DNA of 64,000 nucleotides from Siniperca chuatsi (taxonomy: Eukaryota; Chordata; Actinopteri; Centrarchiformes; Sinipercidae), in the NCBI RefSeq assembly GCF_020085105.1, contig NC_058053.1:20053388-20117387 (forward strand), given 5' to 3'. A program made the position numbers and the translations under genes. Positions 45,907 to 55,800 of the stretch are shown one piece after another (within the stretch, counting starts at the first letter, position 1; every line of letters begins with the position of its first letter). The notes below the pieces were generated by a model. That model was not told the origin of the DNA, searched no databases, and saw only the letters and a list, made by a program, of their open reading frames with translations.

Positions 45907-48900
45907 TTTGAAGTAACGTCAATTGTTGTTTTCCTTTCAACCGAGAGGTGAAACTAATTTACCAAAAGCTGTTTGACAGCTGGAAATCGCTTCCGCGTCT
46001 GGAAAGAGCACCTTGACTTTTAGGTAGTGCGCAGGGGTACTTGCTTCTTCATAAACCATAAATACACCACACCCATTACTTTACGACATGAACAGACAAT
46101 TATATATATTTATTACTTAATAACAGTATATCTTTTTTTAACCTAAATAGTTGTGTCATGGTTCTTTGTCTGCAAAATGAAGGATTTTTGAATGTACTAC
46201 CCACACCATCGGCCCCACAGTGGACCATTCCAGGGTCATGGGCGTGAGACACGTTCCCAGGGGTTGTAGTTGTTCACTCCCGTTAATATGATCTGGCTGT
46301 TCCAGTTTAGTTGTCGTTCGTTATATCAATGGTGGACGTGTTTCTAATCGTTTTTTGGAAGCCATTTTGCAATAATAATAAGATGAAGAAGAAAAAAGAA
46401 AAACAAACTTCCCCCAAATCAGGGAACTGGCTCGCCAGACGGGGGCGCTGTTGTTCTTCATTAATTTAATGCTAATATTTTCATTTAAAAAGTTTAACTG
46501 CTGGACACAAGATGTCTCCTACTCCACTGAAAAGTCCATTATCAATGTATGTGTACTGGAGGTTTCATTTTGCATATTGGTCCATGATTGGCTTTCAAAC
46601 TAGTCATTTTCTTTAAAAAATTACTTCTTTTAGTTAAAATCAAAATCTGTGAATTGTGACACAAAAACATTAGTGGGATATATGTTATGTAGGATTTTTA
46701 AATGTGTGTCATGAGCCTTATTGGGTATACAGAATGTATATGTTAATGACCAAGTTTTATTCCAGTTAATATTGTCAATTAACTGAAAAAACTTTCCTTA
46801 GCTTAGGGGGCTTGGATACCATTGCACGTTTTACAACCTGATCTATTTTGTTTTAAAGATGTCTTTTTCAAGAGTGAAACTGGGGAGTGTTTCAGGCTTT
46901 GTCTGAGGAGGCTCTAATGTCTTTTGTTTGGGTTGATGCACTTTGTAACCAATGAGCATTTTAATTTTAATTTTGTTGACTTGCACTTGTTAAAAGAGAG
47001 AACATGAATTTACAAAGTAAAAAGGGGTCAAGGGAGGCAGCGGTTTTTACTGTGAGTGTGAGAGTGTCTCCTGCACTACCAGACAAGATTTTTGTCTTAA
47101 GCTTTGAAGCAAAAAATGCAAGAAGAATTTGCTGGTTCCAGCTTCACATATGTGAAATTAATATCTTTGGGTTTGGGACTGTTGGTTGGACAAAGCAATC
47201 AATTTAAATATGTAAACTTGGGCTCTGTGAAATTGTGATGTGTGTTTTTCACTTTAATTTTATAGACCAAACGATGAACTCATTAATCAAGAAAATAATT
47301 TGTAATTTAATCGTTAATTAAAATAATTGTTAGGTGCAACCCTACTGTAAACCTACTCGGCTGTATCTCTTTCCAAAAAATTCCACTTCTCTAAACATTA
47401 TTTAAGTTATTCCTGGAATATTCTTCATTGAACCTGTCTCCCACATACAAAGACACCTTCAAGTTTAATGTAGGGCTTTTGTGAATATTTCCAGCTGACC
47501 TGATGTAAATAGATATATTTCAGTCTCTGTTGGTGTATATGTGTTAATGTCTCAGCCAACAGTATTTTGTCGTAACAGGATTAAAAGATTGCCCTGTCTT
47601 TTCTAATTCCCCCTTTTTGATAAGTTATTTGCTTATATTTTAGTATGAAGCCTAATTGTTTTCTAATCCACTCCTATTTGCCCTGTAAAATTGACTGCAT
47701 TATGCTGTTAATACAAACTCGATACTCTGTATCTGTTTAAAATTAAAAGCCCTCATTTCAGTGGACAGAATCCCTTCATTCATAACAAGGCTTTTATTGT
47801 GAAACATTTGTAGGACCCTGATATAGAAAATTCTGTGACTCATGGATGTACAGTACATGGCACAGTTCCCATACATTCAAATGTAGCTGCTGCCATCTTG
47901 TGGCACAAAATAACGTTTGGTTAAGACATTACGCAAATACTGTATACAGCCACAGTAAGTGAAATATGACAACAACACTTTAGATCAAATGCACATTATG
48001 CTTAGTTGGCATGCACATTATATGACAGGCACCAGCAGTTTATCCACCCTTGTTTTTTGCCCCCAACCACACCCCCGGCCATTATTGTTATTATTGACTA
48101 CTTACATGAGAAAACACTGTATAAAATGTGAGAAATTATTTCTGAAATACGAGTTTCAGCTCCAAAGCACCAGTACCATGACGGCAGGAATAGACGCGCA
48201 TCACAATCCAAACGGCGGCTGGCTTGACCCAAGAGGCATGTCCACTTCTCTGGACATGCAGCACACCAGCAGCCTCCTCTCCGCCGCAGCTTGGCACCTT
48301 TCTCTTGTTCCATTCTCACACGGTTTATCATTTTTCATGTGGCTTTTGTTCTCACTGTCATGGATGCATCTCGACATGTATCTAAGTACAATACTTGACA
48401 TAAAAATGGAAGGAAACAGAAAACGACTTTGTTAGCCTACAGAATGAGAGTAGGCCTAAATGCAATTCGTTACTTCGACCCCTGCTTGCAGCTAAGCAGT
48501 AACTGGAGGCCAGAAACTTGAGGAAAACCGTCGAAACATGGAGGCCAAACACAGATCAGTCAAAAAACAAAACAAAACAGCCTTGAGATATTTAGAGCTG
48601 TAATCAAATGTCTGTCGTGTGACAGTAACATGGTGCTTTCATGTGCCATATGCCAGTCGGCAATATAAAACTAGTCACAGAATTGGCATATGATACTAAA
48701 ACAAGAGTGGCAAACCACTGGTATACCAGTGAAACGTCATATCTGCCAGTGAAACATGAATGATGAGCTGTTTTTAAATCACACACAGCAGCAGCATATC
48801 ATAATCATCACTGGGATTTGTCAAAAATAATCGGTATATGTCAGTGGGAAGTGGTATAACTTATGACTCTGGAACATGAGTGAAATACCATTTATAAATA

Positions 48901-49146
48901 GCCTAAGCCAGTAGAATGGCAGCAGCATACCAAAGACCAACGGTGACATAATACTCAGAATCGACATATGCCACTAAGAGTGGCGTAGGCTACCGTCAGC
49001 CACTTTCCAATCTGAGCACTGCTGGAGAGTTAACGGTGGACTGCCACATGGAGGTTATACAGCCAGCTGCTGTGCCTTTCTCTCTGTTTCTACATCCCAC
49101 TGTGCGCATTTAACTGACCAACATGTCCTCTTTTTCTGACAGCAAA
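45907..49146. other. uchl3-scd relic intergenic region
   Basis: 45907-46100 should hold the uchl3 5' UTR and promoter; no TATA motif at a credible position. About 46510-46615 is a repeat segment (CATATTGGTCCATGATTGGC) whose inverted relative is at about 54317-54352. About 46993-47343 is copy 4 of the TAGGGCTGCAA element, ending GTTAGGTGCAACCCTA. The rest, including a 158-codon frame at 47959-48435, resembles no family that I know. Confidence 0.5.
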
Positions 49147-52100
49147 ATGACAGAAATGGAAACCTGGAGTCATCATGCTGGCAAGCAACAAAATGGAGAT
49201 TCCACTGCAGAAACATGGGAGGCACAAGATGACGAAACCTATAAAGATAAAGAGCGGCCCAGACCGCCAAATGCTGAACAACTGAATGTCTCAACTTTGT
49301 TTTCATTATTCCTCTCTTTGCAATGCTGAGCTGCATATTATTTCAGTGGGGAAGACAAAGCACAATCACCATTCCCATAGACAGAATGCTCTTTGCCAGT
49401 CGAAGTCCCCGATTCTCAAATCGTGGGTTGCCTTGTCTACGCTTCACATAGAAACACATTCAGCAGTTTTAGAAAAACAGCAGACCTGCGTACTCCCACT
49501 GTCCCATCTCCCCATCTAGATGAATTTTCTTCCAACAGAGAGGCATGGGTGTAATGGAAAGAACATGGTGTCCCAGTGACTCTGCTCTCATGGGTATAAA
49601 ATTTATGTCAGTGTAGTGGTGAAAGCTATAATATCTGTCCTTTCTTCCAGCTACAGTGCACTACATCTTCAGTATGCTTGGTGTGATTGTGGGAGCACAC
49701 AGATTATGGAGCCACAGAACCTTTAAGGCTTCTTTTCCACTGCGAGTCTTCCTCGCTATCGCCAACAAGTACTCAGAGACAGACCCAGACCCCTACAATA
49801 CCACACGGGGGTTCTTCTTCACCCACGTTGGTTGGCTGCTGGTTCGCAAGCATCCCAACGTATTTGAAAAGGGACAAAAATTGGATCTGTCTGAACTGAA
49901 GGCAGATAAAGTGGTTATGTTTCAGAGAAGGTGAGCAAACACTAACCAGAGTTTGTCTTTGGATTTACTGCTGTTGTTCTGTCAAATGTGTCTGCTGCTT
50001 CACTCAGTCACTGCAGCACCACGAGGAGTACATAAGTGGTTTTGCCACATTATTATTGTATTGAATCACCCGTTGCTAACTTTTAGTAGTATGCATCATG
50101 TAAATCTGTAACTTCTTAGTTATTCTCATTTTCTGTATGGAAATGATAGTTTTTGCTTAATTTAGCTCATATTTACCTATATGTATTCTATCCACAGAAC
50201 ACAAACACGCACACACACACACACAATTACAAATACACACCAAAGCAAGCCCCACACAGACTATACCTACCCAGACTGAGCTGGGCATCTGTTGAAATAA
50301 ACCATTCGAAAGGTATCCCTTCTCTGGAGCCTGATTCTTTAGCCAGAATCAATGTCCATATTGGCCACGTCAACCAGCATAATTTGGAGAGGAAGCGTTA
50401 CTTGCGCAATAATTGGTCCTTCGAGCTGGATTGAGAGCAACCCCTCAGACAATATGGACAGCACAGTCCCAGACATGCCAGCGAGCGATGACAGGCCATG
50501 TAGAGACCACCACTTGACTCCTAACTTGGCTGACTATGAAGTTGGTTAGAAACCTCCAGTGGGTCATCCTCCACCTTTTTCTTACTGCATTCACAGCGGG
50601 TATTCAACAGTATAGCAAGCTGCATTAACTCTCCCAGCCATAGTCATCACAGCTGACCAAACTCCTACTGCAGGACCACATGAGGAGCAGCACCTCCAGC
50701 CTCCTCACACTCTGCGCTGGCCCCTGTGGCATCGCCTCCGCTGGTGTCACATTCTGCTACAGGCTCACCACTGCCTGGGGCATCCCCAGTGACACCACAC
50801 CCAGATCCAGCACCAGCTGTGACCAACTCCACACTGTGTCACGTTGTGCTGCCATGCACTGCATGTTGTACCTCCTTTCCAGTCCAGTCTCCATTCTTCC
50901 CCTCTTTAGTCACCACCACCATATTTGACTCATAATGCCCCCTATGCTCATCAGGCATCTCCAGCCCTTACGGCTCCCCAGCCTGGTCACGTCTCACTAC
51001 CCAGAGCAGAGCTGCTGATGGCTTCCACATATGACATCCCCAGACCTATGTTGCCTGTATTTGAGAGTTTATTGTTTGTCTATATTTAATGATACTCAAG
51101 GCAAGAACGATCTGATTGAAAGAAAGAGAGTGGATGTGAGAGCGTCAAATATTAAAAAGCATTTCTTCACTTCAGGTGTTGTTTAAATGTGCATATTAAA
51201 TATACATATGGGAACAGAATCACAGCGTACCTGCGCAGTGTCCACTCAGCATTTCTACTCTTCTTTTCTACCCAATCAGATGGCCCTATCAACTGTGTGC
51301 AGTGTACTAATGTGCAAATTGTCTAAAAATATTCATGTTAATATGTTTATAATTGCTCTCATAACAATGTAGGTTTACATTTATTTCACCATGACGTAGG
51401 TACAGATTTTGATGCTGTTTTAGCAATCAAATTATGTAAATCACAAAACACATGAGATGCAATGTTGCTTTTCACTCCCATTTAGAGTGTGTTGTGGGAT
51501 TATAGACTGTATTATGTGACAATGCCAGTTAAATCTAAAAAGACAATTTTTATTATTAAAAAATTCTATTTTATTTTACTTAGCCTCAGATTGAATTACA
51601 GTCAGGTCAGAATTTATCTGTGTAAGATATAATTTGTTCTTTCATTTCAGGCACTACATGCTCTCTGTGGTGATCCTTTGCTTCCTCGTGCCCACGTTGG
51701 TGCCCTGGTATTTCTGGGGTGAATCCTTGGTTATAGGATACTTCCTCTCTGGGCTCCTGAGATACGTTCTGCTGCTCAATGCCTCCTGGCTGGTCAACAG
51801 TGCTGCACACAGGTGGGGCAACTTTTCACTATTATTTGTCCTACAGTAATGTGCTTATACCCTGTTGTGACCATGTAAGCATTTTTGTGTGATTAAGTGT
51901 CTCTTTGCGCCCAAGGGATATTTGAATGATCTTTTCATCACTTGTTGAAAGCTTGTCCTGTCAAGTCAAACACAGTGGCGGCTCTTTCAAAGCTGATTCA
52001 GTCTGGCATCTCTAGTGGGGAAGCGTGCTAATCCAGTGGCTGACGTTAATTTGGAATCAGCCACTGGAATTTTTTAAAATGGAAAAAATGTACTGGAAAC

Positions 52101-52808
52101 AATTATATTCAGAAGTCCATTTTCACCTTGTTTTTAGTCCCACTTATTGTGTCATTTGATGTGACAACATCATCTTAAGCTTGTTAATTGGATGTTTTCT
52201 ACTGCAATGCTCCATGAGATCCACAGACACCTTGTTTCCTAAAGCTGTTATGTCTTTCATGAACCAGAATGTCTATTTTCAACATATCTGCTCATTGTTT
52301 GCGGTGTTGATTCAACCTTGAAAAACGATGAATGGAACTTCTACTTGACAAATATATTTGGGGACACCTGTGCTGTTACCAACCAATGTCATAATGATTA
52401 CAAAGACTAACTTAGCAAATCTGATTTTGGTAGCTTGTAAGTTATATTACTTGACAGTCAGCCTTTAAGATTTTCTAATCCAAAAATAAGTCTCCACTTA
52501 GCATCAAATCAAATTATCAGTCACATACGGCCAATAGCTGTTAGCAAGTTATACCTGTGAACTTGTTGACATTCACTGAAACACTAAGCTTTTCTTTTTG
52601 GTTTCCAGGTGGAGGCTTCCACAACTTCCATCACACATTCCCCTTTGACTATGCCTCCAGTGAGTTTGGCTACTGGCTCAATCCCGCCACTGCCTTTATA
52701 GACCTCATGTGCTTCCTGGGATTGGCCAAGGACCGCAAGAAGGTGTCAAAGGAAGTCCTCATTGCTCGCATGCAGCGAACGGGTGACAGCAGCCACAAAA
52801 GTGGCTGA
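49147..52808 (+). pseudogene. decayed stearoyl-CoA desaturase (scd) copy
   Basis: Delta-9 acyl-CoA desaturase homologue, an ER membrane di-iron enzyme when intact. Four pieces are left. (a) 49147-49272: MTEMETWSHHAGKQQNGD ... ETYKDKERPRPPN, the cytosolic N-terminus, after which homology stops before the first membrane helix. (b) 49651-49931: HYIFSMLGVIVGAHRLWSHR ... FLAIAN joined straight to KYSETDPDPYNTTRGFFF ... VVMFQRR. (c) 51651 to about 51816: HYMLSVVILCFLVPTLVPWY FWGES ... LNASWLVNSAAHRWGN, then homology stops. (d) 52609-52808: GGFHNFHHTFPFDYASSEFG ... RKKVSKEVLIARMQRTGD-SSHKSG, stop. Histidine boxes HRLWSH, NSAAH and HNFHH remain; the HxxHH box is gone, with the intron it flanked. Piece (c) has lost its donor, so (c) to (d) cannot be joined in frame. 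Introns rule out a processed retrocopy. Not able to act as a desaturase as it stands. Confidence 0.85.
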
Positions 52809-55800
52809 GTCACACTAGCTACAAAGTCTGTCATTGACGCCAACGTATTGGACCAACACAAAACGTAGCAACAGGGATAGGAGCATTTCAGTGGTGGGGT
52901 GGTGATTACCATGCCTCTGATTGTATGTTAAACCTCTTCCTGAGCCTAATTTTGGCTTTAAAGATTTGTAGAACTTTCCATAAAATTGCATGGGTATGGG
53001 TCTCTTTAAATTGTCCTTTTAAAGTATCCTCACCAACTCTTAGGCACAGCCAGCGACTTGTCTGCATGTGAAAGCACAGCTTTTTCACCATAATCAAACG
53101 GGCACGAGGAGAACGAAAAAAGCTAATTGGGATTTAATCTCTTTTGGCAGCAGTAGGATAACCAAAGAAGTCTGTGTGAGTGGTGTGTCATTAATTACAG
53201 AATTATTTATCTCTTATTTATTAATGTGATATTTATTAAATGGTCTTTGGCACTTTGAAAGCTTTCTAGTGAGTAGTCTCTACAGGCAAGATTTAGTCGT
53301 GTCAGATGGAACTCTCTCATTGGAAATAATCAAAAATGTTCAAACTTTGGCAGAAAGTTGCACATTCATGTAGAACCCCATTGTTCATAATAAGCTGATT
53401 GAAAAAAAAGCATTTTCGGGGCTTTTAAAGGTTTAAAACCGGCATTGTTTACATGTTTACTTCCTAGCAGTATTGTTGGTAGGAATTTGTGTCCAGTCAC
53501 CCACATGAGGACAATGAAAATGATAATAATTTTAGTTTGGTACAACATTTGTAGTTGTTGGCACACCAGAGTACATACTTCACCTTGGGCCTGTTCCAAG
53601 AAGCAACTCACTTGATTGAGTTTCATGTTTGTCAGCAAAAGTTAAAGTCTTAAAAATCTTAAAGCCCCAGAATACTCTATGATAGGGGGTCTGTCTGTGT
53701 ACACCCCCCACACATCACCCCTTTACGCCCCAGGCCTCTTGCCAATAATTACACGTTCTACATTCACGACTAACCATCTTTTATGTTGTACATTCCTTGT
53801 ATCAAAGCAGGGAATATTTCAGCAAAACACATACATATGTCAATACTTGACCCTGCGAGGATGGTTAGGGATTTTGAATAAATCTGGCACAGTTCACACT
53901 TCTCTCATGTCACGTGTTACATCACACTATTAACACACCAATTTGGCGTCGCGGCTGGTGTGATCGCATCGGAAGATGGTCTCTAGTTTTGATTACTTTA
54001 TGTGATAATTATACAGTTAAAAAATACGCACTGTTCTTTTTTCCATGAGTATTTTGCAATGCCTGTCAAGGAAAGAATATTTTTTCATTTATGTCGAAAT
54101 AAATGTCCAAATAAAGTGTAACTGGAAAAAGTAGAAAATTGTTAAGTTAAAATCCCCCTCCATGAAAAAATGTGTTTTGCTTATTGTTACTTCACTTGTG
54201 CAGAATGGTGTATGTGCAGAGTTAGACACTAGAAGGCTGTTGTGGGGTGAAGGAGGAAAGTTTCTCTGTGCTCATCTTAAAGTTGTTAAAGAATGGATTT
54301 TATAACATCACAACTGGTTTGAAAGCCAATCGTGGTCCAATATGCAACTTATAAAATTGTGATGTGGAAACTTAAAACTTCCACCACACATAAACTGAGA
54401 AAAGTCTCTACAGACAAAAATATTTGCATATTCATAGATTTTGGATTTCTTAATCAGGGAGAAGGATTACATTTCTGCTATTATACATGGAATCATTTGT
54501 GATTTTTTGACCCAGGAAAAAGTTTGCATTTTGTTGCAAAGAGAAGAATTAATTTTGGGAATACATATCAAGCTTTCACAATTACAAAGGATAAGTGTAG
54601 AGGTTCAGTTTTGTTGGGTCCCTGCACCTGTGGATGCTAAAGGAAATAAACAAGCAGGTAAAATAGCAAAGAAAGCTCTAAAATTACACAATCATGAAAT
54701 AATAAGAGTAACATATTGTAGGGGAGGAGTAAAATCTAAAGCTAAGTGGGATAAATGTTTGGAATACAGCCATGATTTACGCCTGGCAGAAGGAATGGCA
54801 TGCAGATCACAGTGGGAGACATTATTACAGAATACAGAAATCTGTTAATGTGAAGCTGTTTCAGAGAGGATGTTGTACTCAGAGAGAGGGAGTGATATAT
54901 TCACAGCTTAGACTCGGACATGCAGGTTTTAATTCTACCCTCTATTTAATTTGAAAGACACCTCCAGAACCCTTAAAAGTGGCGTAATACTGTAGAAGAT
55001 GTTTAACATGTCATTATGCAATGTAATAAATATAATTCAGAAAGGGAGATATTAAAAGATATAGCTCAAGAGACAGGACACATATGGGGTTTAAAAGGAC
55101 TATTGACTGGAGGTCTAGGATAAAGAGAAATCAAAAGGGGGCTAATGGGATTTTTTATGGAGACAAGATTAGGAAATAGGTTTTGTTTTTAAAATTGTTA
55201 TGATTTTTTTAAACAATCAACATTCAGACACCACAATGTCTTAAATATTACATTCACGTGGGTCCAAGCAAATTTAGAAACAAACTTGGCAAAGGAATCG
55301 ATCAAAAAGGGAATTGTCGAAAGTAATCTGATTATGAATTAAAGTTCAAAATCAGAGGGGAAAAGCATAGTGTAAATAAAAAAATCAACAGTGGCAACAG
55401 TATTGAGATAACCCAACAAAAGGAAGACATCTACACTCTATCCGAAATAAAGTAGGTAGAAGACTCACTTATACACAGTAACATTAACAGTACACTTTAC
55501 ATTATGGGAAAACATCCAACAGGTCATTACGATCAGTGTCATTCAAAAGAGACAGTTGGGCATATCCTAGTAACATGTAGAAAATATAGCCTATAGAAAG
55601 TCAAGAACTGATCACACAATTAGGCCTACGGAAAATAGATAAAGAGTATATTCGAGTGAGTATTTGTTTTTTTGTTTTTTTAAGCACAATTTGACTGATT
55701 AGACGACTTTAGAAGAAATAGACGTCGAGGAAGACCAAATCATCCAGAAGGAGGCAGTAATGCAACGTCATGAAAATGCCAACTGCCGTAAAACGTCAAA

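Follow-up and report, generated by a model that had tools for sequence, protein, structure and literature searches.

The desaturase remnant and its neighbours

The window, by which we mean the whole 64,000-nucleotide stretch of Siniperca chuatsi DNA analysed here (C12:20053388-20117387), was compared with the 719 Mb genome in 65 contigs. On its plus strand it carries the remains of a stearoyl-CoA desaturase gene (scd), which extend exactly from an ATG at 49147 to the end of a stop codon at 52808. When joined, the remnant exons match mouse SCD1 (E 7.6e-84) and human SCD1 (E 5e-80) in the PDB. The flanking genes are uchl3 on the minus strand and commd6 on the plus strand, and the scd-derived exons found between them bear out the placement proposed by the first-pass annotation of this DNA. 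Beyond commd6 lies an ORF at 62.4 kb with a PID match under the Pfam cut-off (E 0.0042), which we take to be TBC1D4. The features are collected in Table 1, where homology is given relative to an apparently intact scd gene on contig C11.

Table 1. Features of the uchl3-commd6 interval, in window coordinates
Feature	Position	Strand	Remarks
uchl3	start codon 45906	-	exon matches Peptidase_C12 (Pfam E 9.3e-15)
5' flank/5' UTR, C11-homologous	48680..49146	+	62.6% identity over 48680-49276, exon 1 included
Exon 1 remnant (MTEMETW...RPRPP)	49147..49269	+	6-nt gap, 2-nt shift and 3' deletion; TGA at 49327-49329 ends the frame
Remnant of the intron preceding exon 3	49311..49650	+	C11-homologous; acceptor TTCTTCCAG
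Exons 3 and 4, in-frame deletion fusion	49651..49930	+	exon 4 donor retained
Repeat-like stretch within intron 4	50034..50409	.	without C11 match; matches C22 and C21 at 79-87%
Exon 5 remnant	51651..51822	+	acceptor present; end gone (about 46-47 nt), donor degraded
Exon 6, whole	52609..52808	+	acceptor and stop codon present
3' UTR, C11-homologous	52809..53296	+	detected homology to C11 stops here
Dispersed repeat	53718..54003	.	matched by at least 42 rows at other genomic places; includes AATAAA at 53877
commd6	likely ATG 56061	+	two exons, when joined, match the COMM domain (E 5.5e-19)

Two AATAAA hexamers at 54098 and 54110, 1290 and 1302 nt past the scd stop, had been read as old poly(A) signals of the gene. 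The hexamers exist, but their assignment to scd is unsupported, because no homology to C11 is detected beyond about 53296 and the dispersed repeat intervenes. This repeat accounts for 42 of the 52 rows of a DNA search in which the best 40 of 265 candidates were scored, so that its count is a lower bound. In the C11 gene, the first AATAAA hexamer is found 1527 nt beyond the stop. The remnant is also flanked by two stretches, 54147-54521 and, in the opposite sense, 46469-46603, both of which have a matching sequence within intron 3 of C11; the sequence common to all three is probably a repeat.

Origin of the window copy

When the joined remnant was searched as protein against the whole genome, 13 matches came up. 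The 11 strong ones (E < 1e-7) all fall at three loci, namely the window, C11 (16.26 Mb) and C20 (9.71 Mb), which leaves two weak ones (E 1.3 and E 3.84). The C11 locus contains exons for a full desaturase, whose joined protein is recognized by Pfam as FA_desaturase (63.7 bits), and C20 contains the same kind of exons; the 212-residue joined remnant of the window matches no Pfam family at E ≤ 0.1. Each of the two other genes is located near a DnaJ (dnajb12-like) gene in matching position, the Pfam scan covering the one on C11, and a DnaJ neighbourhood is described for teleost scd1a and scd1b in the cited sections of Castro et al. 2011 (PMC3112091). The C11 and C20 genes are the canonical teleost scd1a/scd1b pair, with the a/b assignment left aside here, and since DnaJ stands beside both of them as in that pair, C11 represents the parent position. 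An ORF of the Wnt family (PF00110, E 3.3e-47) is present about 9 kb downstream of the C11 gene; in the species surveyed in the cited part of PMC3112091, SCD1 is typically followed by WNT8B.

At the DNA level, the window can be aligned with C11 in separate pieces over 48680-53296, through the 5' flank, introns, exons and part of the 3' UTR, whereas alignment with C20 in the scd stretch is confined to exons 4, 5 and 6. Judged from this difference in alignment, the window copy arose by DNA duplication of the C11 gene, and the location on C12 is the derived one. Over the 214 codons compared, nucleotide identity is 86.6% between window and C11 and 74.5% between C11 and C20, while the residue identities are 76.6% and 82.7%; 195 of 1416 aligned noncoding nucleotides differ between window and C11. 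A genome-wide DNA search with 48900-54130 returned at least 52 rows, comprising the query stretch, five pieces of C11, a single exon of C20 and 45 rows from two repeats, and no further scd copy appeared among the matches listed (best 40 of 265 candidates scored).

These comparisons bear on two other origins. The first-pass annotation had argued for DNA duplication instead of retrocopying and had placed the introns at known scd positions, and both statements agree with our results: the acceptors of exons 3, 5 and 6 and the donor of exon 4 match C11, and homologous introns and 5' flank are shared with it. A processed retrocopy would be intronless, with homology limited to the mRNA; we found no point in its support, and we reject it as having a probability close to nil. 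The same annotation had also entertained an ancestral teleost scd (or scd5) that resided in the uchl3-commd6 interval and died there. Seven of the 33 residues unique to the window copy equal those of mouse or human SCD1, which counts in its favour, but the introns and UTRs align with C11 and the coding identity to C11 exceeds that between C11 and C20, whose synonymous sites are saturated. We therefore reject an ancestral resident as extremely improbable.

Lesions and remaining coding capacity

The copy is disabled by three deletions and a 2-nt shift and, together with its parental introns and flanks, these lesions give it the character of an unprocessed (duplicated) pseudogene. In exon 1, two bases are absent after CCGCCAA, and about half a kilobase is then deleted, so that the remainder of the exon is lost together with its donor and some of the intron. 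Between exons 3 and 4, the copy lacks 807 bp that are present in C11, 57 of them exonic: the final 15 nt of exon 3, the whole intron and the initial 42 nt of exon 4. The second histidine box (HRVHH in C11) was removed with the start of exon 4, and the histidine motifs HRLWSH, NSAAH and HNFHH are retained. Functional SCD desaturases characteristically possess all three histidine boxes, of which the second is deleted here. The third deletion took the end of exon 5, and intron 4 includes a stretch unmatched in C11 that is partly repeat.

No complete spliced desaturase frame can be assembled across the exon 1-3 and exon 5-6 junctions. None of the three GTs in 49201-49360 provides an in-frame donor from exon 1 to exon 3, and among the 16 GTs listed in exon 5 and downstream of it, two (51719 and 51800) reach exon 6 in frame, both within the old exon. 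The candidate donor ACA|GTGCTG looks weak to us against the donor consensus. Given the loss of the second histidine box, of the end and donor of exon 1 and of the end of exon 5, an active desaturase should be impossible now, to judge from SCD chemistry. The deletions could nevertheless represent one allele or an assembly fault. The earlier statement that internal stops are lacking is accurate for the retained exons 3-6 (214 codons), but the exon 1 frame runs into a TGA (Table 1).

A truncated or rearranged gene that is still expressed, perhaps as a non-catalytic protein under selection, would account for the in-frame fusion of exons 3 and 4, the open frames, the two GTs that could reach exon 6 and the non-neutral replacements described below. 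Against this stand the missing donor from exon 1 to exon 3, the lost end and donor of exon 5, where both in-frame GTs lie within the old exon, and the lack of a known start codon for the remaining part, and we regard such a gene as very unlikely.

Pattern of amino acid replacements

When changes in exons 3-6 (214 codons) are polarised with C20 as outgroup, 33 residues are changed in the window copy alone and 3 in C11 alone, while 14 differ in all three. The high conservation that had been attributed to the window copy is thus wrong, as it is the fast-evolving one. Gene conversion of C11 by C20 was considered to explain the 33-to-3 asymmetry and rejected, in view of their 74.5% nucleotide identity and saturated synonymous sites.

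The contrary expectation is that the duplicate was dead on arrival, never functional and drifting neutrally since duplication, and simulated neutral runs at a series of branch times t show what this would produce. The 33 window replacements have a mean BLOSUM62 score of +0.39, where neutral runs give -0.62 to -0.66, and none of the 2000 runs made at each branch time (t 0.1, 0.127 and 0.15) had a mean as high; for comparison, the means are +0.62 for C11-C20, +0.76 for mouse-human and +0.18 for C11-mouse. Changes affect 12 of 128 positions that are invariant across fish and mammals versus 20 of 44 others (Fisher p 8e-7). Of the 2000 neutral runs made at either of two branch times, 0 and 1, respectively, had an equally low share of changes at invariant positions, and equally few changes at such positions were seen in 67, 2, 0 and 0 of 2000, from the shortest t (0.076) to the longest. 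The seven new residues identical to mouse or human compare with neutral averages of 1.1-1.3, a count that none of 2000 runs attained at either of two times.

Positions that do vary are affected more often than drift would predict. At the 79 positions variable among C11, C20, mouse and human, window and C11 differ at 36, against neutral means of 12.3-22.1, and simulations under neutrality at t 0.076, 0.1, 0.127 and 0.15 reached this number in 0, 0, 0 and 1 of 2000 runs, respectively. With polarised changes (20 of 44), the corresponding figures are 0, 0, 2 and 19 of 2000 over t 0.076-0.15. Variable codons show no excess of synonymous differences (4 of 43, against 17 of 116 in the others), an argument against a mutation hot spot. 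Taken as a whole, the changes in the window copy fit the fast evolution of a working protein, not blind drift.

Other results are compatible with neutral drift from the start. Stop-free frames were retained in 21.5%, 14%, 8.9% and 6.1% of 1000 neutral runs at t 0.08, 0.1, 0.127 and 0.15, and in 276, 188 and 116 of 2000 in a second simulation set, making the absence of stops, by itself, weak evidence. A single omega for all branches is about 30 lnL units worse than a window-specific one, which counts for a fast-evolving window copy; with equal branch times, which are reasonable because both copies are equally old, omega is 1.04 for the window and 0.15 for C11. The window value does not depart from 1 (2ΔlnL 0.03), and a neutral window branch is 1.46 lnL units below the free one, which is not significant. 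In a home-written branch-site test, the alternative is no better under the clock (LRT 0.66, p 0.21), with p 0.0023 at t 0.076, which is half of the noncoding divergence, and p 0.089 at t 0.1; the p of 0.035 with free times is untrustworthy, as omega ran to infinity, and the window omega was likewise unbounded in unclocked branch models. Positive selection on the window copy is thus suggested in a model-dependent manner. Considering the replacements as well, we judge it unlikely that the copy was dead on arrival.

Age and order of events

Window and C11 differ by a Jukes-Cantor (JC) distance of 0.152 in noncoding DNA (195/1416), at 12 of 76 fourfold sites and by a dS of 0.24. Neutral rates in teleosts amount to a few 1e-9 per site and year, and the age of the duplicate may be put, by inference, at roughly tens of millions of years. 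With a softer alignment setting, 26 indels were counted in 1416 noncoding nt versus 2 in 644 coding nt (exon 1 excluded), the latter two falling in blocks otherwise compared gap-free, and the blocks were picked between deletions, a choice that favours a low coding count. The first setting gave 45 noncoding and 11 coding indels (exon 1 included), numbers inflated by gaps in coding blocks. At half the noncoding density, about 6 indels would be expected on the window branch in 642 nt. Small indels are accordingly depleted in the retained code yet present, as the 2-nt and 6-nt gaps of exon 1 demonstrate. The few small indels and the replacement pattern together suggest that death came late in the life of the copy. 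For these reasons, the recent loss proposed at first pass is still the better reading, although the conservation on which it was based does not hold.

Interpretation and comparison with known desaturase duplicates

Our analysis strongly favours an unprocessed pseudogene of the C11 scd gene that underwent fast coding evolution under protein-level selection and was later killed. A DNA segment of some 4-5 kb or more, carrying the C11 gene with flank, introns and 3' UTR, was copied, as the alignments show, into the uchl3-commd6 interval of C12. As the replacements imply, the copy probably then evolved fast while still coding for protein, and selection would have acted at the protein level over a large part of its existence. 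The observed deletions and 2-nt shift broke it, in an order suggested by the pattern of change, with the rapid protein-like change probably preceding the breakage. Two other scd loci remain in the genome. A more specific version, in which a short-lived third scd came under positive selection that spared invariant positions and was then deleted piecemeal, draws on the excess of differences over neutral drift at variable positions; we put it forward tentatively, as somewhat less probable than its opposite.

Dead gene duplicates are common, and this one is ordinary, unusual only in its fast yet protein-like change. The remnant seems to document how a key membrane-lipid enzyme changed in this manner before being lost, a record that is testable against relatives and habitats (cold, diet). 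If the positive-selection reading is true, an adaptive desaturase duplicate was gained and lost within one fish lineage. The case also indicates that an open reading frame must not be taken as conservation. In the literature listed, which covers few subscription journals, no paper was found to describe an scd copy in the uchl3-commd6 interval.

As far as the cited sections of PMC3112091 describe them, teleost scd1a and scd1b belong to the same family as the window copy, whose exon borders match C11 and whose parent is one of this pair. Unlike them, the window copy is a third one, broken, on another chromosome and outside the dnajb12 neighbourhood. SCD5, the paralogue of SCD1, is reported in the cited parts of PMC3112091 and PMC10240347 as lost in most teleosts, and in the latter as present in salmon and trout; the window copy differs in being, by its intron homology, a C11 duplicate. 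In rodents and rabbit, extra SCD1 copies arose by tandem duplication, according to the same sections of PMC3112091. The window copy resembles these expansions in its origin by duplication but, unlike them, lies on another chromosome and is dead.
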